NCBI GenBank assembly: GCA_930367215.1
Contig: OV884057.1
Coordinates: forward strand, 262,340,339 to 262,404,338
Length of the DNA: 64,000 bases
Direction: 5' to 3'
Source: Pollenia angustigena
Taxonomy: Eukaryota > Arthropoda > Insecta > Diptera > Polleniidae
The notes beneath the pieces are model-generated. The model made no database searches. It saw only the letters and a list, made by a program, of their open reading frames with translations, and was not told the DNA's origin. Position 1 is the first letter of the stretch. Each line of letters starts with the position of its first letter. Made by a program: the position numbers and the translations under genes. Shown piece after piece: positions 2,641 to 44,581 of the stretch.

Positions 2641-4229
2641 GTTTTTTTAATTCCGATCATCAGAATTTTTTTTAATAAATTGCGGGACTTTCCGAATCCG
2701 GCATTGTTATTTTCCGAAAAAAATAAAACTTAAAAAAAATCAAAAGTTACAAAATATAAACCAAAAAATATATATTTTATATACATTTTGAATGAATGGA
2801 CAATAAAATGAACAATAACCCATCAAATTTTGGGGTTTATTTTAATGTTAAATAATTCAAAAATACCTAATCCTTCAAAAAATACCCATTATGTATATCT
2901 AATTGTGGTATAAATAGTTGTCTCAATACTAATATTAAATTATTTTGTCAATTTAAGCGGGTACGCTATAAAAAATTGCTTTAGTTAGCGTAGAAATTAT
3001 TCGACAAACTTTTCGGCCTCGTCCCAAATGATTTAAAAAATTTTATATTTTTCACATTTTGACTTAATGTCCTAATTTTGGACGACATTAAAAATAGATA
3101 TATACACTATTTTATTTTTTATGCAAAAAAACGCATTAAGGAAATCTTGGTTTAAAATTTAGCCCAAAATCGCATAAAAAGTCATAAAATAAAAGAATTT
3201 AAAAACAATTCATTTATTTCATATGAAATACACATTTATCTGGCTAAACCAGTTTTATAAAAGTTAAAAAATTTACAAGTTATGTAAGAACGAGTGAGTT
3301 AAGTTAAAAATAGATTTCAATTAATTTGTTAAAGAACGAACTAGAGACAAAAAAAAAAAAAATAAATAAAAACATTACATTTTATAAGAATCGCTACTTG
3401 ATAAGGGTCTGATCTGCTTCTGAATTCGTGCAAAATTACTCTCATTGCTAGAGAGAGCAATCAAATCATCACTGTTGTCAACGCTAGATGAAAATCTATT
3501 AGCAAAAATTTCAAGTTGTTTCTATTGAATATTTATTTGGAATTTTTTTTTCTAACAAAAACTTCGAATACACAAAAACATGCGGATTTGAAAACACGTA
3601 TTTATGAATTATGTATCCGGATTAAAAAAATTTTGCATTTTCAATACCTGTCGAAACCTAGAACATACCTGAATATAAGATAAAACTTAATTAAACCATT
3701 TTTTTAGTTACCACTATTATTACTAATATTCGTAATGTATATTTATACATAAATTGCGTAATTAAGTATATTCTAAATTTACTGCATTATCTTCAAGTGA
3801 TTAAAAAATGATACTTCAGGATTAAAGTAGCAATAACGATCAAAAAATGATTAAAAAGTTTCCATGATATACTTGTGGATAAATTTAGTTCAAGTTCACA
3901 ATTATATATGATGACCTCTCCCTCAAGTCGCATTATTGAACGCACATGTCGTTGAAATATGGACCGATGACGACGCTATCCACATCAAACAGTGATTTTT
4001 CGTTAGGCATTGGACGATCTTCGATCTCATTTGGATCGACATTCAACAGATTTTGTTTAAACATTATGGCCGCTATCAGCCTTACTAAATATTAAATACT
4101 GTTATTTACGATATTCGTAAAATGTTAATACAATATAAAACATAATTTATGTATGTCATAAAAACTATACATTACCTTTACGTCATTAAACAAACTAAGA
4201 AACATTTTAACAACATTTTTAAAAGCATG
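2641..4229. other. AT-rich non-coding stretch
   Basis: No gene or bounded element recognised. Contains a 14-base A run at about 3349-3362 and many short A or T runs. Confidence 0.45.
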
Positions 4230-4235
4230 AAGCAT

Positions 4236-4337
4236 GCTAAATAAAATTGGCTGGTGGTGAAAATCACTTTTTCATGGCTAAACAAAATGAAAAAAATCGC
4301 TAAATTTAGCCAATAAACGCCAAAGTTGGTAACACTG
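4236..4337. mobile_element. hAT-type MITE relic, one end only
   Basis: The right end reads GTTGGTAACACTG, the reverse complement of the hAT-like terminus CAGTGTTACCAAC. The interior shares the wording TTTAGCCA and TGGCTAAACAAAATGA with the complete small element at 54,401-54,537. The matching left terminus is not visible, so this is probably a truncated copy. A similar fragment (TCATAGCTAAACAAGATGA ... AACAACACTG) lies at about 38,464-38,511. Confidence 0.45.
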
Positions 4338-4929
4338 ATTAAGGGTATAAACTATAAATTTCCTTCTTATAAATACATATTTATTTTACAGGTTGTTAAA
4401 CAAGTTATAACACTCGTTATAAGAGTCGTTTAAATGTCAACCTGGCATAAACAGCAGAAAGGAAGGAAGTTGTTATTTTGTTTTACTCTAGCATGTCATT
4501 ACCTTTTCTCGTAAAGGAGCTAAGTCCAATTTAATATTTTTTTAAATCTGTAAATGCAGTTTTGTTTTATGGACAACTAAATTGAATTAATTATGGATTT
4601 TGTTTTACAAAGGTTTTTGTGACTTAGCACCTTTTCTGTTCACTATTTTGTACTTTTAATGTTTTAAATTTTATATAACATAACTTATCTGAACCAAGGC
4701 CTATCCAATAGGTCTGCTTACCTTTACAGCAATACAAAAAAAACAACAGGCATTTTATTTGTGTAAAATTCCTCGCTGTTGTCAAAATCTTACTACTACA
4801 TAGAGGAAACAAAAGGAAAAATGTGTTTTGTTTGCATGTACATATGTGTTGCAAAATACCAAAAACCTAAACAAATATATACATGTATAAGGCAAATGTA
4901 AACAACTTTTGACATCGTTGAGGAATAAA

Positions 4930-5400
4930 CCAAATAAACATCTGGCTTGCGCAGACTTATGGGATAGACCTTTATGGTATAACAAAGACCGACTTCGCTA
5001 ACTAAAGCTTTTCTGCACAGACGGCCTTTGGGCGGGTGCAAGTTTTTTTTTCCTTTATGGTATAACAAGTACCGGTTTCGCTAAGTAAAGCTTCTAAAAT
5101 CTGCCTTGTTTCCGAACGAAGGCCGATTTCGCAGAGAAGCCTTAGTTAGCGAAGCCAGTATTTGTTATACCATAAAGGAGAAACTCCTTGCGCCCGTCCG
5201 AAGGCCGGCTATACAGAGAAGCTTTAGTTAGCGAAGCCGGTGTTTGTTATACCATAGAGGATTAAATCCTTGCGCCCGGCAGAAGTCCGGCTGTGCAGAG
5301 AAGCTTTAGTTAGCGAAGCCGGTACTTGTTTTATCAAAGAGGAGAAAATCCTTGCGCCCGGCCGAAGGCCGTCTATGCTTTCGAGTTTGTAAGCATGTTT
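4930..5400. repeat. 82-bp satellite in head-to-head arrangement
   Basis: The right part (from 5132) holds three units with a period of 82 bp, measured between successive CAGAGAAGC starts at 5132, 5214 and 5296. Each unit carries GCGCCCG, a short GC dyad (GGCCGAAGGCC type), CTTTAGTTAGCGAAGC and TTGTTATACCAT. The left part (about 4930-5100) carries diverged units in reverse orientation. The array ends at CTATGCTTTCGAGTTTGTAA near 5372. A shorter array with the same 82-bp period and the same exit sequence sits at 60,007-60,120 inside a Mutator-like MITE. No coding function is claimed. Confidence 0.8.
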
Positions 5401-8296: not shown

Positions 8297-9600
8297 AAGG
8301 GTGGTTAAATTTCAAGGGCCGATGTTGATTTTGAATAAAACACAAACTATTTAGGAAATTATTGTAATTTTATTTTATTATGATATATTAGTATTACTCA
8401 ATTATGTACGGAACAAAATATCGGCCAAATGGGCGCCGCGACCACGGCGGCACACCTCCATCCGATGGTCCAAATTTTCGATGACCCTGAGGCATAATGG
8501 AGGTTCTATGCCGTTAATGTGCCGAATTATCTCATCCTTTAGCTCTTGAATTGTTGCTGGCTTATCGACGTACACCTTTTCTTTCAAATAACCCCAAAGA
8601 AAAAAGTCCAACGGTGTCAAATCACATGATCTTGGCGGCCAATTGACATCGCCATTACGTGAGATAACACGGCCATTGAATTTGTTGCGCAAAAGAGCCA
8701 TTGTTTCGTTAGCTGTGTGGCAGGTGGCACCGTCCTGCTGAAACCACATATCGTCCACATCCATATCTTCCAATTCGGGCCATAAAAAGTTCGTTATCAT
8801 CTCACGATAGCGAACACCATTCACAGTAACTGCCTGACCGGCCTCATTTTGGAAAAAATACGGCCCGATGATGCCGCCAGCCCATAAACCGCACCAAAAA
8901 GTCACTCTTTGTGGGTGCATTGGTTTTTCGACAATCACTCTTGGATTCTCATTCGCCCAAATGCGGCAATTCTGTTTATTGACGAATCCACTGAGGTGAG
9001 AATGTGCCTCATCACTGAAGATGATTTTCTTCGAAAATTGATCATCCACTGTTGCCATTTCTTGCCACCATTCTGCCCATTCACGACGTTTGGAATGGTC
9101 AAGAGGCTTTAGTTCTTGAGCCAATTGCACCTTGTAAGCGTGTAAATGCAAGTCTTTATGCATAATGTTCATCAACGACGAGCGTGAGAGGTGCAATTGT
9201 TGGGCACGACGACGAGTTGAGGTGGACGGCTCTTCAGCCACACTATCGCGAACAGCAGCAATATTTCCTGCAGTACGAGCTGTATGAGCATGCACTGGTG
9301 TTCTCACATCTTCTACAGACCCGGTTTGCTCGAATTTTTCCACGATTTTTGCGATTGTACGCACATTTGGACGATCAAATTGACCAAAAAAATCACGAAG
9401 TGCACGATATGCATTTTGATTTGAACGCCCATTTTCATAATAAGTCTGGATAACTTTAACACGTTGTTGGATTGTGTATCTCTCCATGGTTCAAATTGAG
9501 TAAGTCTGAAATAGAGAAATGTCAAATAAAATTCGGAAAAAAACTTGGCGTTTAGGTGTGGTTCACATTCAACATCGGCCCTTACAATTATAAGGGAACG
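8297..9600 (-). mobile_element. Tc1/mariner-superfamily element, DD41D group
   Basis: A 361-aa transposase ORF fills most of the unit. Both ends carry AAGGGCCGATGTTGA in inverted orientation (left near 8314, right near 9580), with similarity continuing outwards through a TTAAATTT/TATAATTG stretch. TA dinucleotides lie symmetrically outside both ends (8295-8296 and 9601-9602), as expected for TA target duplication. The outermost 8-10 bases do not match well, so exact borders are approximate. Confidence 0.75.
8402..9487 (-). CDS. DD41D mariner-like transposase, intact ORF
   Basis: Cut-and-paste DNA transposase of the Tc1/mariner superfamily. It would bind the terminal inverted repeats and move the element into TA sites in the nucleus. 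Residues about 1-60 form the first DNA-binding helix-turn-helix (QQRVKVIQTYYENG onward) and about 70-130 the second. The catalytic core shows D159 (FSDEAH), D252 (FQQDGATCHTA) and D294 (TPLDFFLWGYLK). With 41 residues between the last two acids this is the DD41D pattern, known from the rosa and Visitor groups, not mariner DD34D or maT DD37D. I see no internal stop, and the length suits the family. The start ATG at 9487 precedes the conserved N terminus. Whether it is active is unknown. A related but broken transposase lies at 23,767-24,760. Confidence 0.9.
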   Translation of the reverse strand: MERYTIQQRVKVIQTYYENGRSNQNAYRALRDFFGQFDRPNVRTIAKIVEKFEQTGSVEDVRTPVHAHTARTAGNIAAVRDSVAEEPSTSTRRRAQQLHLSRSSLMNIMHKDLHLHAYKVQLAQELKPLDHSKRREWAEWWQEMATVDDQFSKKIIFSDEAHSHLSGFVNKQNCRIWANENPRVIVEKPMHPQRVTFWCGLWAGGIIGPYFFQNEAGQAVTVNGVRYREMITNFLWPELEDMDVDDMWFQQDGATCHTANETMALLRNKFNGRVISRNGDVNWPPRSCDLTPLDFFLWGYLKEKVYVDKPATIQELKDEIIRHINGIEPPLCLRVIENLDHRMEVCRRGRGAHLADILFRT

Positions 9601-16517: not shown

Positions 16518-16522
16518 TGGCG
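16518..16522. other. Transib target-site duplication, left copy
   Basis: TGGCG directly precedes the left terminus and is repeated exactly at 20,157-20,161. A GC-rich 5-bp duplication is the signature of Transib insertion. Confidence 0.9.
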
Positions 16523-16561
16523 CACACTGGGGATTTTTGTATGGAGGTGAGGAAAAAAGTA
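16523..16561. repeat. Transib left terminus: heptamer, 23-bp spacer, A-rich block
   Basis: The heptamer CACACTG occupies 16,523-16,529, a 23-bp spacer 16,530-16,552, and AAAAAAGTA 16,553-16,561. The spacer starts GGGATTT as in the right end. The layout equals that of a 23-RSS (heptamer, 23, nonamer). Confidence 0.85.
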
Positions 16562-16583
16562 TATTTTTCAAAAAATATAATGA

Positions 16584-16915
16584 TTTCATTACAAATTTAG
16601 TTTTATTTATATAGTAATACACAAAAGTAATCAAAATAAAGAAAGTTAGAGAAATATATATCGTTACCTACAATGTAAAAAGCCCTAACTAACAAAAAAA
16701 ATGTAAATGATTTTTTTAATTCATTATTTATTTTAAATCTATTTTTAATTTCATCACAAACTTAGTTTTATTTATATAGTTATATACAAAAGTAATCAAA
16801 ATAAAGAAAGCTAGACAAATGTATATCGTTACCTACAATGTAAAAAGCCCTAACTAACAAAAAATTTAAATGATTTTTTTAATTTTTAATTTATTATTTA
16901 TTTTAAATCTACTTT
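16584..16915. repeat. 165-bp direct tandem duplication inside the Transib left flank
   Basis: The block starting TTTCATTACAAATTTAG at 16,584 recurs as TTTCATCACAAACTTAG at 16,749. Both contain CGTTACCTACAATG and AAGCCCTAACTAAC, at a period of about 165 bp. It lies between the left terminus and the stop codon of the transposase. It may be a duplicated 3' UTR segment. Confidence 0.75.
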
Positions 16916-16923
16916 TTAATTTA

Positions 16924-18774
16924 TTATTCTAAAAGAGCCTTAACTTCGTCGCTTATATCACTATGCTTTTTCTGGCTAAATGAAGGAGTCAAGTGTGAGA
17001 TCATGGGATCTGATGTTACCATCATTCGGTGCATAATATCTTCGTTCGTGGCAATTCGACTGCATTTTCTGGAGTGTCTAAGGCGATATTTTTTATAGTC
17101 TTTGTTACGACTTTCCTGAGCCTCTTCGGATAATAAGCCTACAGGAAAAATACACTTTTCAATTATATATTTTCCATGAATCAGAATTTTGTGGAGTGTT
17201 GGTGGCATATTGTACCACTCGTACAGTGCAACAAACTTTTTTGCCGTCTCCAGACAAAAATCACCAAATTTTTTCGGATCTAGTGCCTCGGTAATGGTTA
17301 TAGCTTCGAGAATTGTTGAAAACCTCTTGATTATGTCTTCATCTAGACCCGTGATTTCGGAAATCAAAGCAGGATTAGCAAAGAATCTTCGTGACGTATT
17401 TCCTGAATTTGTCGTACCAGAGCCTTGTTTAACAGTATCAACCTGTATTCCAATTTTCTCTTTAATTTCACGCTTTATCAAACATTTTCGGGCTTCTCTT
17501 ATCGGACGAGTATTTGAGTCGACTCTTCCACGTTTAAATTCAAGATTGTAAGCTACATGCAAAAGACACTCCATCAGCTTAATACGCGCATGAAGTGGTG
17601 ACATACCAAATTGCAGTGCTTGTTCATTTACGGGCATAGCTTGAACTTCTTCGATTTTATTCATCTTGGATGTTGTTGCTCCACAAATAAAACAAGAAGA
17701 TGCTGCTGGTGTCTCTGTTACTGATTGTGCTGTCTTGCCGTCAATCATTGTAAAATATAATTCATGTTTAACTTTAAAGTTACGATTATTTACTGTTAAC
17801 TCAAATTCTTTTAGTTGAGATATCTCCTCATCGACTCTTCTCTTTACTTCTCGTATAACTTGAGGCGTCTCTTTAACGTACGCAAACTGTAGTGTTCTAC
17901 AATATTGTGTGGAAGAAGGTTTATTGTTGTTCCATACTAATTTATTTATGTCATCACTCAATGATAATTTTAGTGGTACAACTGATGTCATATATAAATG
18001 AGAGTCAGAAATTTGATCATCTGAAAACCTCTGTTGGTATTCGCTTTGACCAGATGCCCCATCACATCCCCATTTATAGTACATTGTTAGATTTCCGCTT
18101 TCAATATTATTTATTTCCTTTACTGATTTGGTCTCTAGGACTCTTTTAGCAGTATGATCCAACAGATTTTGCAGAGGTACACTGCCTGAACTTTCAGTGA
18201 TAGAAATTTCTAGAGGATAACTGTAATTTTTTTTCTTTCGTGAGTTGTTTGTATGGTACGAGTATTCATTTTGTAACCAATGCATTAGATACTCGTATTT
18301 TTCTTTTGTAAGTTCAAGCTTTGTAAACATCCCCAAAGTTTTTAATGTACAAATTTTGTGGTTGGTTTTTGAAATATTAGAAGAAAAATCAATTACTTCT
18401 TGAGGAAACATAGAACGTACTTCATCCCTTTTGTATCGTTTGGTGCGATCACAGCACTCCTCAAACGATTTGCGGGGCCGACCAAGTGCAGAACTGGTAG
18501 AACATTCAGCCTCAGTAAACTTAATTGTAAATGTGCCTTCAAGCCAATTTACATTCTTTTTTTCAAATCGCGACTTCGTACGGTTAGAATCCTGCCATCT
18601 TTGTTTGAAGTTATAGTAAAAGCTTTTATATATGGTATCCAAAATTTCACATGCTCTAGTATCGTTTAAGCCAACGTGCAATTGTTGCAAAAACTGTTTT
18701 AATTTTGTTCTGTCTTTGTCAAATTCCAGAAGCTTCGAGCATAAAACCCCATGAGAAATAGAAAAACTTTCCAT
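16924..18774 (-). CDS. Transib transposase (RAG1-core homologue)
   Basis: A 616-aa open frame. It would cut at the CACACTG termini by a hairpin-forming DDE reaction and insert into GC-rich 5-bp targets. The first catalytic acid is D238 in KWGCDGASGQSEY and the second D345 in FTMIDGKTAQ. The third is one of E550, E551 or E554 in GLLSEEAQESRNKDY. Zinc-site candidates are C361-x2-C364 (CFIC) and H528-x4-H533 (LHKILIH), the same CxxC and HxxxxH layout as in RAG1. The C-terminal YRLRHSRKCSRIATNEDI followed by MVTSDPMIS is typical of the family. Residues 1-170 hold an N-terminal domain I cannot assign. The ATG at 18,774 is the first in frame, and an upstream non-coding exon is possible because GTAAGT lies on this strand at 19,081. 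There are no internal stops. Confidence 0.93.
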   Translation of the reverse strand: MESFSISHGVLCSKLLEFDKDRTKLKQFLQQLHVGLNDTRACEILDTIYKSFYYNFKQRWQDSNRTKSRFEKKNVNWLEGTFTIKFTEAECSTSSALGRPRKSFEECCDRTKRYKRDEVRSMFPQEVIDFSSNISKTNHKICTLKTLGMFTKLELTKEKYEYLMHWLQNEYSYHTNNSRKKKNYSYPLEISITESSGSVPLQNLLDHTAKRVLETKSVKEINNIESGNLTMYYKWGCDGASGQSEYQQRFSDDQISDSHLYMTSVVPLKLSLSDDINKLVWNNNKPSSTQYCRTLQFAYVKETPQVIREVKRRVDEEISQLKEFELTVNNRNFKVKHELYFTMIDGKTAQSVTETPAASSCFICGATTSKMNKIEEVQAMPVNEQALQFGMSPLHARIKLMECLLHVAYNLEFKRGRVDSNTRPIREARKCLIKREIKEKIGIQVDTVKQGSGTTNSGNTSRRFFANPALISEITGLDEDIIKRFSTILEAITITEALDPKKFGDFCLETAKKFVALYEWYNMPPTLHKILIHGKYIIEKCIFPVGLLSEEAQESRNKDYKKYRLRHSRKCSRIATNEDIMHRMMVTSDPMISHLTPSFSQKKHSDISDEVKALLE

Positions 18775-20117
18775 TGCCGTAAAACTCTTGGTCCTTAGTT
18801 TCAGTTATAATTAAATAATTTCGCGTTCGCCAGCACTTGTTGAATAACAAAAATCGATCAGTGAACACCTATAAATACTACGTAAGTTTCAACATTTTAC
18901 TGAAAGGTACTTATGAATTCGCGCATCTTTTAAGGGAGTCTATATACCTGTTTCGTGTGCGTTTAAAATTTTTCGAAACGTTCTAAAAGATGACCACTCA
19001 TAAATGTGGGTGCAATTTGTGTAAAAAAATCATGCAGGTAGCCAACGAAAAAAACCCAAATAATTAAAAAAGTGCACTTACCTTTTTTCCTTTAAATTTT
19101 CCACGCACATTTATTACCGCTTATTACTTTGCTACCGCAATCATAAAAATCAAATAACCTTTTGTTTATTGCTTTTTTTTTTAATTCTGAGAATCATAAA
19201 AAAAGTCATAAATGTTTTTGCAAAGAATTTTGTGCATATCTCGAGCAAATTTTTGAAATGCATACCTTCACTTAATTGTGAATAAAAGCGAAACGCGTTC
19301 ATCGATTTTCATGATTTATGTCTCATTTTTTTCATAGGTTATGCGACTTTACGTGAAAGTAATAAAACTTGAAACTTTTTTTTACTGTTTTGGATTTTTT
19401 ATGAATTAAAAATAAAAAATTTAAATTTTTTGGGCAAAAAATATTTTTTTTCTTCATACATTTATTTATAACTGCGAAACTGTTGCTTATGTAGCAAAAT
19501 GTTATATAAACAGATGAAAGTAATTGTAATTCTTGATTTTTCTAAATTTTTTTCAGCAAAATCCGACTAGTGGTTCTCGAGTTATGTTAAACAAAAGAGC
19601 CTTATCAGAATTGAGTCCCGAATCAATCAGCTGAAAAATGTTGTACTGTGTAATGCAAAAACTTGAGAGGTGGCACCTGGTGGCACTTGAAATTGATTAA
19701 TAATGTTAAAACAGATATAAGACAATGTATTCGGTGTGATTTCAAACTGAGGAAAAGTAAAGAAAAAATTCCAGGTCCAAATGTTTGGAGAAAAATGGGA
19801 TTTTTGTTATATGTCCATAAAAATACAAAAAAAAAAAAAAACTTAAGTCTCTGCAGATTTTTTTTTTCAATTTTAGTATACTGAAATATACTACTTTAAA
19901 TAGAAAAAAAAAGAAAAACGTTAGCTCACATAGTAAAATAATATTCGTATTTAAATTCTTAGGTTTAAATTAAGTTGGTTCGGTAAAACACACAAGTTCT
20001 GAGTTTGAGACGGATATAAAAAAAAACTGGCAGTCAGATCGGAGTAATTCTTTTTGATTTGATTGTACCATTTAGTCTAAAATTGCAACATATCACTGCA
20101 TATTGCTTGAAGACTAT
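18775..20117 (-). other. Transib 5' non-coding region
   Basis: AT-rich, with no second gene. On the minus strand a good splice donor (G|GTAAGTGC, intron starting 19,081) and an acceptor-like TTCAACAAG (AG at 18,837-18,836) would remove about 246 nt upstream of the ATG. That would give a 5' UTR intron. This is speculative. Short frames here have no recognisable features. Confidence 0.4.
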
Positions 20118-20156
20118 GTTGACAATTTGACTTTTTTCCGCGAAATCCCCAGTGTG
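20118..20156. repeat. Transib right terminus: heptamer, 12-bp spacer, A-rich block
   Basis: Read inwards on the minus strand: CACACTG (20,156-20,150), 12-bp spacer GGGATTTCGCGG (20,149-20,138), then AAAAAAGTC (20,137-20,129). The layout equals a 12-RSS. The flanking TGGCG is at 20,157-20,161. Confidence 0.85.
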
Positions 20157-20161
20157 TGGCG

Positions 20162-23646: not shown

Positions 23647-24863
23647 TCGGGTGATTTTTTAGCTATTATCTTTTTGGCAACACTGGTTTAAACAGCTGAC
23701 GCACGTTTCGTGTTTCACTGTCAAACATCTTCAACATCTTCAAACGTATATAATTTAACCATTAAATGCGTGCTCTGTTAAGAAAGTTCATCGCGCGCTT
23801 CTTCCATTTTATGGTCAGTTTAATCGGCCCACTGAAGCGGCTATTCGGGCTATTGTGACTAAATTTCGCACAAAATTTACATTGTTGGACATAAAACCAC
23901 CAACACGCTTACGTAGAGTGCGAAGTGAAGAAAATATCACAGCTGTATCGGCCAGTGTTAATGATGACCATCAATTATCGATACGTCGACGTTCGCGAAA
24001 AAAACGTGGAAAGTTTTGCGAAAATATTTAGGTGTGAAGCATTTCAAAATACAGCTGGTGCAAGTATTGAAGCCGAACGACCTACCGCAACGTAGAATTT
24101 TTGGTGAATGGGCTCTTGGAAAGTTGTCCGAAGACCCACTTTTTTATCGAAAAATTGTGTTCAGCGACGAAGCTAATTTTTGGCTCAATGGGTACGTTAA
24201 TAAGCAGAATTGTCGATTTTGGAGTGAAGATCAGCCAGAAGCATTGCAAGAGCTACCAATGCATCCAGAAAAAGCCACAGTTTGGTGCGGCTTATGGGCT
24301 GGTGGCATCATTGGACCGTACTTCTTCAAAGATGATGCGAATCGTAACGTAACTGTGAATGGTGAGCGCTACCGTGAGATGATATCCAACTTTTTTTTGC
24401 CCAAAATGCAAGAGCTTGACTTGCATGGCATGTGGTTTCAACAAGACAGTGCCACATGCCACACAGCACGCTTAACAATGGACTTATTGAGAGGCGAGTT
24501 CGGTGAACATTTCACGTTCGGGACCGGTCAATTGGCCGCCTAGATCGTGCGATTTAACGCCTTTAGACTATTTTTTGTGGGGCTATGTTAAAGCTCATGT
24601 CTATACACACATGTCCGCTTCAATTGACGCATTGGAAGACAACATTGAAGCATTTATTCATGAGATACCGGAAAGAGTATGCCAATATTGGACTAAGCGG
24701 ATGGACCATTTGAGGCGCAGTCACGGTCAACATTTGCATGAAATAATCTTCAAACATTAAATTATATGGACCGTACTATCGATTCAAAAAAGATTTCATG
24801 CATTTTTCTGAATTTTATGTGTTTTTTTTTAAAACTTTCCTATAGCTCTTAAAAATCACCCTT
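23647..24863 (+). mobile_element. Second DD41D mariner-like element, inactive
   Basis: Ends carry GGGTGATTTTT in inverted orientation (left TCGGGTGATTTTTTAGC, right inverse AAGGGTGATTTTTAAG), flanked by TA at 23,645-23,646 and 24,864-24,865. Length is 1217 bp, with a broken transposase inside. It is a different lineage from the element at 8.3 kb: the protein sequence and the ends differ while the catalytic spacing is shared. Confidence 0.85.
23767..24760 (+). pseudogene. Broken DD41D mariner-like transposase
   Basis: Three frame segments. About 23,767-24,003 encodes the helix-turn-helix part (HRALLPFYGQFNRPTEAAIR). About 24,004-24,530 encodes the first two catalytic acids (VFSDEANFWLNGYVNKQNC and FQQDSATCHTA). 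About 24,515-24,760 encodes the third (SCDLTPLDYFLWGY) and the C terminus. A deletion with frame change near 24,003 removes part of the N-terminal region. A second frame break near 24,510-24,530 separates the second and third acids. The spacing across the break remains 41 residues. No intact protein can be made. Confidence 0.88.
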
Positions 24864-33295: not shown

Positions 33296-33853
33296 CTACC
33301 AAATCTTAGTGGCGGTCTCACAGTCCGACCACTTCTTATTGCTGGAATTCCCACGGTCGGCCCTATCGCTACTAATGTGTGAACTCGTGATTTCAGGATT
33401 CATTTCGACAGGGGCAGAGGCCCTCCTTGAAACAACTGGCTCGTTTATGCTACTTTGACCCTCAGATGTACCATTGTCACAAACCTCCCCTGATGATGGT
33501 CCGATGTCTGTAATTTTCTCCCCCGATCCCGTACCACCTTCTTCATATAACAAATCAGAAGCATTAAAATCATCATTCTTTGTTCTCACAATAAATCGTC
33601 TATTCCGCCTAAAATGATTGTCAAAGTTATCCTTAACAATATATGATCTATCATTGTAAGCCGACACTATCCTACCATAGTGCCATTCCTTCCCATCCTT
33701 TTTAAATAGAACTAGTTCATTGTCCTGCAACCTTGACAAAGGCTTAGCATTCCTATCATAATAGTACCTTTGCTTTTCCCTTTTGTTCTCAATTCTGTGT
33801 CTAATTTCCTGTTGATTCATGTTGTTCGGTTTAAGAAGTGAACCAGCAATTGG
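33296..33853 (-). pseudogene. Integrase C-terminal tail, cut off by an in-frame stop
   Basis: A 174-aa frame (33,296-33,820) continues the pol frame after one stop at 33,854. It begins with the basic QRYYYDRNAKPL region and a small barrel-like segment (LVLFKKDGKEWHYGRIV), as in gypsy integrase C termini, and ends in a Ser- and Glu-rich tail. It would tether integrase to target DNA. In this copy it would be translated only by readthrough. Confidence 0.75.
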
Positions 33854-35825
33854 TTATTTTGTTTTAACAAGTCTTCCAAAAAATAATTCAGATGGGGTAA
33901 CACGCATATCTGCCAATGGGGTTGTGTTGTATTCTAGGAGTCGATACTGAAATTGGTTTTCCTCCCCTGTCTTAACACAGCGCCTAAGGATATTTTTAGC
34001 AATTGAGACCCCCTTTTCCGCTAGTCCGTTACTTTGTGGATATCTTGGGCTTGAAAATCTAAATTGTACATTGTAATTCGCAGAAAATTTCGAGAATTCC
34101 CCAGACCCAAACGGACTATTATCGCACCTAATTACAGTCGGGTATCCCAAATGATTAAATATTCGGCAAATAGTATTTATGACATGCGCAGACGTCTTTT
34201 TGTGAATAGGTAAAGAAATAAGGAAGTTTGAATACGCATCGAACACTGATATATACGTGCGACCAGCATAATCAAAAAGATCCATTGCTACTATATGAAA
34301 TGGATAATTTGGAATCTCATCCTGAAGCAATGGTTCCTTTTGATTGTTTCTTTTAAATCCCTCACAGACTCTACAGGCAGTCACTAAATCTTTAATCTGT
34401 TTATTCATACCAGGCCAGTAGTAAAGTTTTCTTGCCCTGGCAAGCGTTTTTTCTATACCAAGATGCGGCGAATGAAGCCAAACTGCCATCTTGCGCTGCA
34501 TTTCAGTCGGTACAACTAATCTGTGATTTAAGAATAATAAACCATCTTCCACGTGTAATTCAGATTTGAGCTTGTAGAACATCTGACTCAACTTGTCAAG
34601 TTTGTGAAATCGGGGCCATCCCTTTACAACATAATTACAAATCCGTGAATATGCGCTATCACCTCTTAAGATTTCCTGATAGTACATGTAATTTTCTGGC
34701 GTTAAACAAACTGATTTTGTTACCGAGTGAATCACGCCAGAAAGTTCTTCCACCTCCATAACATCTGGCAATTGTGCCCTCGACAAACAATCAGCCAATA
34801 ATAATTCCCTGCCTGGTTTATAGACGACTTTCATTAATGGATATTTTAATAAAAACATAAACATGCGCTGAAGTCGCATCGTCACATCATCTATGTCGCG
34901 CTTTATTAAAGCTTCCAATGGCTTGTGGTCTGACTCCACAGTAAACTCCCGCCCATATAAGAAAAAATGAAAGCGCTGACAAGCGAACACAATTGCCAAA
35001 AGTTCCTTTTCGATTTGAGCCCATTTCTGTTCACTTTTACTCAGAGTTCTCGAAGCAAAAATCACAGGATGACCATTTTGGATAATGACACACCCCAGTC
35101 CATCCTTGGACGCATCCGTCTGCACTATTACAGGTGCCTTTGGATCAAATATAGCCAATACTGGCTCAGCCGTAACTATTCCCAATAAATTTTCAAACTC
35201 CCTTTCATGTGTACCCGTCCATTGAAATTCTACATTATTATGCGTTAACCTCCGCAATTCAGCGGATTGCCTTGAAAGATTTGGAATAAACCTTGCTAAA
35301 TATTTGAAAATATCTAAAAATCGCAAAACATCTGCCTTACTCTCAGGTCTTTTCATTCCCAACATAGCATCCCGATATTTCAAATCAGCCTTTATTCTTC
35401 CTTCACAAATAATATTTCCCATGAATTTTATTTCCTTTTGCCTATATTGAATCTTATCCGGGTTAAATCTTATGTTATTCGCCCTAGCCCTACTCATAAC
35501 TATTTCCATAATCGTATCATGTTCCTCCTCATTAGCTGCGCAAATTGCGATATCGTCAAAGTACACCAGAACTTCCTTTATGTCCCCAAAAATTCGGACC
35601 ATTTCCTGTTGAAACATTTCTGGCGCACAGTTTAGACCAAATGGCACTCGAATGAATCTGAACCTTCCAAAAGGAGTTAGAAATGTTGTTAAATCCGAAC
35701 TCCTTTTGTCCAGCTCCATGTGCCAGAACCCACTTTTCAAATCTAACACAGAAAAAACCCTTTTACTTTTTAATTTACTTACTAATTTTGAAGCTAGGTC
35801 ATCCAATGTAGGGATCAAAAAATAC
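33854..35825 (-). pseudogene. pol: reverse transcriptase, RNase H, integrase
   Basis: A 654-aa frame. RT: FSVLDLKSGFWHM and the catalytic YFDD at residues 86-89. RNase H: D235 (QTDAS), E272 (IEKE) and D297 (VESDHKP). Integrase: zinc-binding H449, H452, C482 and C485 (HSPHLG and CRVCEG), then D513 (AMDLFDY), D566 (IRCDNSPFG) and E601 (SNGLAEKG). All catalytic residues are present. The frame is broken upstream near 35,825-35,835 by a single-base frame change inside the first RT motif block and ends at a premature stop at 33,854. It copies RNA to DNA and integrates it in autonomous relatives. Confidence 0.88.
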
Positions 35826-36380
35826 TCGGGCTAATACAATTATTTAATGCCTTCGGGTCCAAGCAAATACGAAGCTCACCGTTCGGCTTCTCAACTATTT
35901 GTAAATTATTTACCCAATCTGTTGGGTAATCAACGGGAACAATTATACCCTCATTCACCATTCGTTTCAATTCACCCCTAAGTTTATCTAACAATGAATT
36001 TGGAACTCTTTTCCTATAGTGTAATACCGGATGAGAATCTTCCCTCAATGAAATCGAAAAAGTTTTTGGAAATTTCCCCACTCCCTGAAAAACATCCGCG
36101 TATCTATCCATGAATACTTCCTTATATTCAAAACTATTAGCATCTACACGTTTTACCAATCCAAATTTTTGACATGTTTCTAATCCAAGTATAGGTTCAC
36201 GACTCCGATCAACAATAACAAATTCAGCAATTTTCCCAATCCCCGAAATAGTTTCTACACACTTAAGAATACAAAAACCAAAAATCTTTATTCTATTATT
36301 ATTGTAATCCACAACTGAAATATTTCTATTCGTATGATATGCTTCAATTCCTAATTCCTTAACAATGTCAACTGTTTCCT
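35815..36380 (-). pseudogene. pol N-terminal part: protease remnant and start of RT
   Basis: The frame contains ILGLETCQKFGLVKRV, the C-terminal wording of retroviral-type aspartic proteases. It is followed by the linker and first RT motifs (VNNLQIVEKPNGELRICLDPKALN). The protease active-site triplet (D-S/T-G) is not visible in any frame between the gag stop (36,427) and 36,312. A stop also lies at about 36,381. The N-terminal protease half seems deleted or ruined. Confidence 0.75.
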
Positions 36381-36426
36381 ACTCTATAGTTCTTGGTCCA
36401 CTGCTTAGTCACCGCTGCTATTGTAT

Positions 36427-37340
36427 TTAACCTAAGAATATTTTTTTACTTAATATGTTATTTTCTAAAAATATCCTATTGTTATGTTTACCTACTACAT
36501 CGCTCCAGTTGAGTTCTGCTACTTTCGGTTTGGCATTACCGGTTTCATTTGCTGTTGATGGTTTTTTTGGCTTACGACACATGCGTTGGAAATGACCTTT
36601 CTTTTGACAGAAATAGCACGTTGCGTCTTTAGCTCGGCATTCCTTTACATGACTAGTAGTCCAAGAGCCCCCGCAGTTAAAACAAATTTTAGTGACTGGT
36701 TTGGTATGGTCGTCGGTTTTCAGTGCATTAACTACCGGCTGTTTGGCATCTAGTATACTTTTGTTTGAGTTCGCGGCTTCATGCGTTTTGCATATCTCAA
36801 TGACTCGACTCAATTGTTCATCACGGCCATCCAAAAGTTTGAGTTGTAACTTTTTGTCATGGACCCCCACAATGATCCGATCGCGTAACATTCGATCCTC
36901 ATATAGTTTGCCGCATTCACATTCATATGCGCAATAACGCAATTGAGTTCGCAATTCGGTTTCAAATTCCATAAATGATTGACCTTCTTTTTGGGAAATA
37001 ACATTAAACTTGTATGACTCCATTGCGATATTTCGCTGTGGTAAACAATGTCCATCGAATTTTACTAGGACATCATTAAGTGTACGTTGAGTCACATTTG
37101 TACCCACTGTAATGGTACCTAATAACGAATTTTTTGTTCCATCATTCGGGAACAAGGTGTTGTAGATATTAGCACCATCACTTCCGATTAACCAAATGAA
37201 ATTTGCAATTTTGGTATCTTCTGGTTCCTTGTCCTTTCCACTGGCAATCATATAGACTAAAAATTCCGCTTCCAGTCGGGCCACTCGTTGGCTAAGTTTG
37301 TACAATCTAACTCTGAAGGCAGACGATCATTCGATGCCAT
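36427..37340 (-). pseudogene. gag with two zinc knuckles
   Basis: The structural nucleocapsid precursor. The natural start appears to be ATG at 37,340 (MASNDRLPSEL), with EWPDWKRNF following. A one-base frame change near 37,257 leads into the long frame (LVYMIASGKDKEPEDTKI onward). Capsid-like helices fill the middle. The C-terminal part has CFNCGGSWTTSHVKEC and CYFCQKKGHFQRMC, two CCHC-type knuckles that bind genomic RNA. The frame stops at 36,427, just before the ruined protease region. Confidence 0.82.
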
Positions 37341-42245: not shown

Positions 42246-42256
42246 TAATCCTTCGT
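42246..42256. other. LINE target-site duplication, left copy
   Basis: TAATCCTTCGT, repeated exactly at 44,582-44,592. Confidence 0.8.
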
Positions 42257-44581
42257 CTTACCGGTATCTTTCAATCTCTCCACAATCTTCCCATTAGTGA
42301 AAAATTTAAAATACAATTTTGGAAATGCTAACTGGGGAGAATATAAAAATATTGTAAAGCGTTCTTTGAATGATGTCTTAATTACTAATTTGAATACAGA
42401 TGAGCTTATAGATCACAACGTAGAATGTTTTACAGGTATTTTATTAGAAGCTGTCAGACAATCAGTTCCTAAATCCTTACCTAGGATGAATTACCTGAAA
42501 CTTCCTGACTACATTTTACGTTTAATAAAACTACGGAATCAATTTCGTAGGGAATGGTCCAGGTACAGGCAATTTTCTGATTATAGTTTAATGAAAAAGT
42601 ACACTGTTCTTATTCGGAATGAAATCTCTTTGTACAAAAATCGACATTGGAATAACAAGTTAAGTGCTTTAGACAAGGGATCAAAACCTTTTTGGAATGT
42701 TACCAAAATTCTCCAGCGTAAGACCAATAAGTGCAACTTTCTGTTATCAAACGGAAACATTCTGATGTCTGACGAAGACAAGGCAAATGAATTTGCTAGG
42801 ACATTTGTGCTAAATCATAGGATTTCGGAAAACTTTTGTACAAATAGTCATGTAACGATCGTTAATCAGGCAATTCAAGAATTCGATTTATTGGAGGTAA
42901 TTACTCCTACTTCTGAGCTCATCACAAATGATGAAGTAGAATTTATAATAAAAAACCTAAGGAAAAGAAAAGCTCCCGGGATGGATGACGTAAATAACCA
43001 AATGTTAAAAAATCTTCCGAAAATTGCTATTCGTATTTCCCTAAAACATGGAAAACCGCTAAAGTTATACCTATTCCTAAGCCAGGCAAAATGCCAAATA
43101 GGGCAGACAACTACAGGCCAATCAGTTTGTTAAGTAGTCTAGGAAAAATTTTAGAAAAAATTATAAGTGAGAAGCTTACAGTATTTCTTGAAAATAATCA
43201 CATTCTACCTAATGAACAATTTGGATTCAGAAGGTCGCATTCGACTATTCATCAAGTCAAACGAATTTGTAACGATGTCAAGAGCGGCCTGGTATCAGGT
43301 AAATCCACTGCATTGGTGTTACTCGATGTTGAAAAAGCATTTGACTCAGTGTGGCATCATGGCCTAATATATAAACTTATAAATTTCCATATTCCCAAGT
43401 TTCTAGTTAAAATGATTAGAAATTTTCTTGATGATAGACTGTTTTGTGTTTCATTTGGAAATTGCTTCTCTGACTTGATCAAAATTCCTGCGGGAGTTCC
43501 GCAGGGATCGGTTCTCGGACCAATACTTTACAATGTTTTCTGTGCTGATATTCCTATAATTAACCCATGCAAATTTGCTGCATATGCTGATGATTTAGCG
43601 GTTTATTATACACATGAACTTAGTCAGAATATTCTGACTGAGATACAATGTGCACTAAATAGGTTAATAGAATTTTACTCCAAATGGAGGATAAAAATCA
43701 ATCCGGATAAAACACAAGCCATCTTTTTTACTAGAAAAAGAAAATCTTGCTTTTTACCCAATTATAAACTGGCTATTCAGGCCAATGAAATAAACTGGTC
43801 TAATAATATTAGGTATTTAGGTGTCTGTCTAGATCCCAAGTTAACTTTTAATAATCACATTTGCCATATCATAGATAAGGTTAACAAATACAAATATATA
43901 TTATATCCACTTATTAATAGAAATTCCATGCTTAGCAATCCAAATAAAATCCTGATTGTTAAAACAATTTTTCAGGCTATAATTCTATATGGTTGTCCGA
44001 TTTGGGGTGACTGCGCCAAAACACATATCAAACGACTACAAATTGCCCAAAATAAAATCTTGAAAATGGCCCTTAAATTACCTTGGCATTTCTCTACCTC
44101 CAGATTACATGTAATTAGCAACACTAAAACTGTGTCACAGGCTATTGAAAGTTTAACCACCCGTTTTGTATCCAAGTGTGATTCTTCGGAAAATCCACTT
44201 ATATCTACACTATATTAACTCTTATCTTTTTTATCTCTTTACTTTATTCGTACCCATGTATAATATTAAAAATTCTTATTTAAATGTAATATTACAACTT
44301 ATAGTTCGTTAAGTATACTTAATTTGTTATTTATAGAATTTTTGTATTTTCACTTAACCATGTTCATTGTATCATACTTGCATTTTGTCTTTTTTTTTTT
44401 CTCTCTCTCTTATTGAAGGTTTTTGTTAATAGTTTTCCTTCAGTCCAAATAATAATTTAAAATGATAATTCTTAGATTAATATATTTCATAATAATACTT
44501 TAGATATATGGCTCGGCCAATTCTGTGCAATTATACATTTTAGTCATAACAAATTTAAAATTCTGCTATTCTATAAATAAA
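42257..44581 (+). mobile_element. 5'-truncated Jockey-type LINE
   Basis: Bounded by an 11-bp duplication (TAATCCTTCGT). The 5' end starts inside the ORF at the endonuclease-to-RT linker, so the endonuclease and ORF1 are missing. The 3' UTR runs from 44,219 to 44,581 and ends in AAATAAATAA. The element is about 2.3 kb against roughly 4-5 kb for full-length Jockey-group elements. The fragment at 12,213-12,696 is a relative. Confidence 0.88.
42258..44218 (+). pseudogene. Jockey-type reverse transcriptase, truncated and frame-shifted
   Basis: The first frame (42,258-43,130) carries the RT-preceding domain and ends RKAPGMDDVNNQMLKNLPK, the RT0-1 region. A deletion near 43,020 then shifts to the second frame. 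That frame (to 44,218) begins YFPKTWKTAKVIPIPKPGK and RADNYRPISLLSSLGK and contains LLDVEKAFDSVWH, AGVPQGSVLGPILYN and the catalytic YADD in FAAYADDLAVYY. The C-terminal region has IKINPDKTQAIFFT and the ILYGCPIWGD segment. There is no RNase H, consistent with the Jockey group. Its reading direction and 3' end agree with the target duplication. It cannot encode a working protein. Confidence 0.88.

Follow-up and report, generated by a model that had tools for sequence, protein, structure and literature searches.

The window, a 64-kb stretch of DNA, contains a Transib element of 3,634 bp at positions 16523–20156, referred to here as family A. The element is bounded on both sides by a perfect TGGCG target-site duplication (TSD; 16518–16522 and 20157–20161, unstranded), confirming these as the true ends, as a first-pass annotation had proposed. 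The left terminus, 3' of the gene and on the plus strand, reads CACACTG-23-AAAAAAGTA. It consists of the heptamer CACACTG (16523–16529), a 23-bp spacer of sequence GGGATTTTTGTATGGAGGTGAGG (16530–16552) and the nonamer-like block AAAAAAGTA preceded by GG (16553–16561). The inverted right terminus, 5' of the gene and on the minus strand, reads CACACTG-12-AAAAAAGTC, with the heptamer at 20150–20156, a 12-bp spacer of sequence GGGATTTCGCGG at 20138–20149 and the nonamer-like block AAAAAAGTC, again preceded by GG, at 20129–20137. The annotated layout of 23 and 12 bp followed by A6 blocks is therefore exact in this copy. The spacers had also been described as starting alike and then differing by 11 bp; indeed, the outer 14 bp of the two ends are identical, after which they diverge and then share the 10-mer GGAAAAAAGT, shifted by 11 bp. 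The labels 12 and 23 count the second element from its first A, and the 11-bp difference is independent of this register. Just inside the left end, a 140-nt block occurs twice in direct orientation (16560–16864, plus strand; spacing 165, 87% identity) and forms a 165-bp tandem repeat whose copy number differs between elements, with fewer copies in loci L107 and L131 and more in L130.

The shared block was compared with Markov simulations of end pairs. Out of 20,000 pairs, 66 had a common block of at least 10 bp at some position, and 3 had such a block offset by exactly 11. A6 occurs at 861 of 128,000 positions when both strands of the window are counted, and the two further CACACTG sites in the 64 kb are followed by an A-run in neither case.

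The element encodes a 616-amino acid Transib transposase (16924–18774, minus strand) that belongs to the Transib/RAG1-core DDE transposases. Residues D238, D345 and E554 are unchanged in every relative with a residue at those positions, and family A displays both the 5-bp GC-rich TSD and the CAC-heptamer terminal inverted repeats (TIRs) of the Transib superfamily. A stretch around residues 171–183 (18226–18264, minus strand) is out of frame relative to the relatives, although the frame remains open. At residues 98–101 (18472–18483, minus strand), a GRPR motif was aligned by profile to the GGRPR nonamer-binding motif of RAG1, as a weak stretch of ~9 bits within a multi-part match; GRP is present in 43 of the 86 alignment rows with that column. 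In the structure model, the motif is followed by helices at 109–122 and 125–137, the order of GGRPR and then helices known from RAG1. The nonamer-binding region of families A and B (below) is ~30–36 residues shorter than that of RAG1 and of families C and D. The missing residues may correspond to the part of RAG1 that dimerizes, and because they are absent, dimerization through this domain is uncertain in A and B.

Residues 1–85 (18520–18774, minus strand) form an N-terminal folded domain (pLDDT of the block mostly 81–93) that is common to many full-length Transib relatives. No fold in the PDB matched this domain at E ≤ 0.001, including when residues 1–140 were folded alone. A Pfam scan of the window protein returned no family above cut-off; among five relatives scanned, PF12940 (RAG1) was hit by P0004 with a score over the curated cut-off and by P0001 with one under it. 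PF26100, precomputed on many relatives, is absent from the Pfam scan run here. The unspliced ORFs of at least 80 amino acids in the element are the transposase itself and three frames that lie antisense inside it, with no RAG2-like gene among them. Searches of viral_contigs and genome_contigs confirmed no locus encoding a relative, and 71 exact 14-mer matches in viral_contigs were taken as chance. A Heliothis virescens protein (P0003) shares 74% identity over the full length, which would hint at horizontal transfer if the hosts are distant.

Several other mobile elements lie in the window. A 362-amino acid transposase frame with a DUF4817 helix-turn-helix (8402–9490, minus strand) and a transposase frame with no Pfam match (23968–24543, plus strand) are both presumably Mariner/Tc1-like. 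Gypsy-like retrotransposon frames, one with a zinc knuckle, occupy 33296–37326 (minus strand), the pol frame having its best named matches in ant and mosquitoes (59–61%). Two overlapping frames at 42249–44218 (plus strand) encode a LINE-type reverse transcriptase.

A scan for family A covered the genome of the window itself, 1.37 Gb in 31 contigs. The terminal 14-mer occurs 1,082 times compared to 2 for the reversed control, and the 12-type end pattern CACTGGGGATTT-N5-A6 occurs 526 times compared to 0, placing the family at hundreds of copies. Forty loci were fetched. Thirty-five were picked for having both 14-mers intact from the first 100 listed places, all on contig 1, and the remaining five were taken as singletons, for which a partner end was found in three (including L140) and none in L138 and L139. 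The first-pass annotation had held that copies with one spacing at both ends, or without a conserved A6 block, would reduce the layout to a chance indel in one copy. All 38 two-ended loci combine one 12-type with one 23-type end, in either genomic orientation, and none is 12/12 or 23/23. These 38 include some from one tandem array (L117), in which there are five 23-type ends and the closest one was used as the partner. As family A copies share their ends by descent, 38 of 38 does not amount to 38 independent tests.

The A6 block is likewise conserved. Among 77 distinct classified ends, on whose division into 38 of the 23-type and 39 of the 12-type the balance of types rests (one more, L098, is unclassified), A6 begins at exactly +23 in 36/38 and at exactly +12 in 34/39. 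In the other two 23-type ends a T comes first and A6 starts one base on. Individual departures include a 23-type spacer that reads 22 through a 1-bp deletion (L137), a 12-type end with A5 (L139) and a 12-type heptamer mutated to AAC (L140). TSDs of 5 bp are perfect in 32 of 37 pairs and carry at most one mismatch in 36, the exception being L134 with three; 22 of the 37 left-hand copies match CGNCG. At L117 (G000:C1:89002650-89008300), the tandem array at positions 2739–5060 is marked by five 23-type ends that all point the same way. Each is followed by CGGCG and the same start of the flank, their spacing is 461–462 bp except for one gap of 937, and the repeated unit spans the boundary between element and flank.

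Family A is a recently amplified cut-and-paste Transib. Identity to the window element is 97–99% for near-full-length copies and mostly 85–97% for pieces of an older subfamily, and of at least 71 transposase matches scored in the genome, 50 of those 71 are stop-free. One genomic copy has an intact open frame of 619 amino acids. Element lengths range from 1.2 to 6.4 kb, and 18 of the 35 elements compared have lost more than 500 bp of interior relative to the window element, with both ends kept. Beyond the selected 14-mer, neither spacer contains an indel in the compared ends, and 3–4% of cells at positions 101–200 are gaps. Substitutions in this part of the 23-spacer are rare (0.010). The pairwise difference in the 12-spacer beyond the 14-mer is 0.041, compared to 0.046 at positions 42–100 and 0.058 at positions 101–200, and so is not clearly lower.

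Several distinct Transib families, A to D, coexist in this genome. With the relative P0023 as query, 67 matches were scored; they are of several kinds, and six loci of three kinds (L142–L147) were read. Family B, with 24 matches at 503–504 bits among the matches listed, was read at L142 and L143, which are 3,380 bp long, 99.8% identical to each other and flanked by the TSDs CGGCG and CGTCG. Its core shares 44.5% identity with the window protein over 476 amino acids. The 5' end is CACAGTG-12-CAAAAAGTC and the 3' end CACAGAG-23-CAAAAAATA; the spacer sequences differ from those of family A, yet the spacer is again 12 bp long at the 5' end and 23 bp long at the 3' end. In family B, the GRP motif falls within the open frame but before its first Met, and an in-frame stop separates this frame from sequence resembling the N-terminal domain, suggesting that the gene likely contains an intron. 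Family D (L146 and L147; TSDs TGACG and CGCCG) also has the GRP motif and is symmetric, with ends CACAGTG-23-AAGAAAGTC and CACAGTG-23-AAGAAAGTA. In family C (L144 and L145), the 3' end is CACAGTG-23-CAAAAATTT, and no 5' end was found at these two loci.

When GGAAAAAAGT was scanned through five ends of families B, C and D, the unique best offsets were 12, 23, 23 and 23, and one end gave a 22/23 tie. In 20,000 base shuffles per end, which keep base content only, a unique best offset of 12 or 23 arose in 2.8–2.9%, and an equally high score at 12/23 arose in 0.005–0.33% for the four unique ends; the two family D ends do not count as independent. The spacing is thus either 12 or 23 in families A, B and D. 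A midpoint-rooted tree of 25 proteins groups A and B in a clade of 14 (support 0.988), with C and D outside and the nodes separating A from B weakly supported. Since A and B share one clade, the 12/23 layout may have arisen once. Because family D is 23/23 and retains the GRP motif, asymmetry is not required by Transib chemistry. The asymmetric layout noted in the first-pass annotation is real, family-wide in the sample and common to family B, but it is a family trait and no universal need of Transibs.

We consider it probable that family A carries a 12-signal at its 5' end and a 23-signal at its 3' end, with a transposase that likely reads each signal bipartitely and is predicted to pair unlike ends. 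The catalytic core would cut at the CAC heptamer through the nick-hairpin route of RAG and Transib, and the GRPR region near the N terminus would grip the A-tract, which lies one or two helical turns inward of the heptamer. Spacers of 12 and 23 would put the A-tract on one face of the DNA, one turn apart, and a dimer gripping both A-tracts could set the allowed spacings about one turn apart. From the sequence, we infer that 12/23 pairing may act as a functional rule. Weighing against this reading are the 23/23 ends of family D, the shared descent of the family A copies and of A with B, 12-spacer substitutions that are not clearly rarer, the shorter nonamer-binding region of A and B and the symmetric TIRs described for HzTransib.

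Two other accounts of the spacing deserve weight. In one, the ends are recognized in two parts (heptamer and A-tract, on the same DNA face) but bound independently, the unequal spacing giving unequal affinities as in many transposons. This is quite possible: as 11 bp is about one helical turn, the face presenting the A-tract barely shifts between the spacings of A, B and D. The strict heterotypic composition of the loci speaks against it, but does not separate it from the pairing of unlike ends. In the other account, which we think unlikely, a historical 11-bp indel in one end was inherited with no role in pairing, the transposase recognizing the heptamer with its neighboring bases and accepting both spacings. 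The recent common descent of family A copies, the placement of A and B in one clade, the TSD-flanked 23/23 ends of D and the substitution level of the 12-spacer all agree with such an indel. It fits less well with spacings that fall on 12 or 23 in three families, with the retention of spacer lengths and 5'/3' assignment in B despite different spacer sequences, or with the lack of symmetric derivatives among 38 loci although about half of the elements compared (18/35) have lost interior sequence. Chance A-runs in the AT-rich termini of one copy have a vanishingly small probability. A6 is common in the window, but the block is conserved between copies and recurs in another family at the same register; the simulations, the 38 loci and the register of B and D rule out both a chance A-run and an indel confined to one copy, because the layout is family-wide in the sample and common to a second family.

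Returning to the pairing of unlike ends, such a rule can be tested in this genome because of the copy number, the open frames and the symmetric relative. Two 12/23 families, one of them young and high-copy, stand here beside a 23/23 family of the same register and make up a natural matched set. This set bears on whether a RAG1-like enzyme without RAG2 enforces 12/23 and hence on whether the rule came with the transposon. A broader proposal, possible but rather doubtful, is that the 12/23 rule predates RAG2 and that a lone Transib transposase enforces it through its own GRPR domain, whose form (short in A and B, long in D) sets 12/23 versus 23/23.

Family A resembles the vertebrate RAG1/RAG2 system, whose 12/23 layout serves in joining antibody genes, in the heptamer, the 12/23 spacers, the A-rich second element, the DDE residues and the GGRPR-like motif. 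In PMC8289069, the vertebrate RSS consensus is CACAGTG-12/23-ACAAAAACC; compared by eye, AAAAAAGTA matches this nonamer at 5/9 and AAAAAAGTC at 6/9 positions. Counted from the heptamer, the A-run begins after 12/23 bp in the window element and after 14/25 bp in the vertebrate consensus, which puts it 2 bp nearer the heptamer in family A (1 bp in family B). Family A differs further in its shorter nonamer-binding region, in being a transposon rather than a recombinase locus and in that no RAG2 gene was found in the element. PMC6941560 describes the AT-hook-like GGRPR of RAG1 in the minor groove of the nonamer, with helices 2 and 3 dimerizing, and PMC8355894 states that the vertebrate 12/23 asymmetry is recognized only by RAG1 complexed with RAG2. 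ProtoRAG/RAGL elements share with family A a RAG1-like transposase, CAC ends, a 5-bp TSD and asymmetric ends (27/31 in ProtoRAG), and ProtoRAG works better with asymmetric ends, according to PMC8289069. They differ in the second element and spacing, and family A has no unspliced RAG2-sized frame.

Among Transibs, HzTransib from Helicoverpa zea reportedly leaves a hairpin at the flanking DNA and cuts its signal end blunt (PMC6941560). PMC8289069 describes its TIRs as symmetric and as having little or no similarity to the nonamer, in contrast to the asymmetric ends of family A. The HzTransib chain (PDB 6pqn/6pqx) aligns from window residue 138/139 (chain residue 21), which leaves no room in the deposited chain for the N-terminal domain and GRPR region. 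The open-licence literature, in the excerpts available, contained no description of family A, of pairing at the level of copies or of 12/23 beside 23/23 families. Most Transib TIRs are called symmetric in PMC8289069. According to PMC9435367, all Subgroup I Transibs have asymmetric TIRs and Subgroup II has both kinds, both subgroups having a nonamer-binding domain that includes GRP. PMC8355894, citing Kapitonov & Jurka 2005, lists 12/23 TIRs for Transib5 of Drosophila melanogaster and for Transib2, N1, N2 and N3 of Anopheles gambiae, families that by this description are likewise 12/23. RSS-like Transib ends had thus been discussed before, as the first-pass annotation noted, and because 12/23 ends are published for these other dipteran families, family A is a further case of a kind of Transib already in print, to which it adds.
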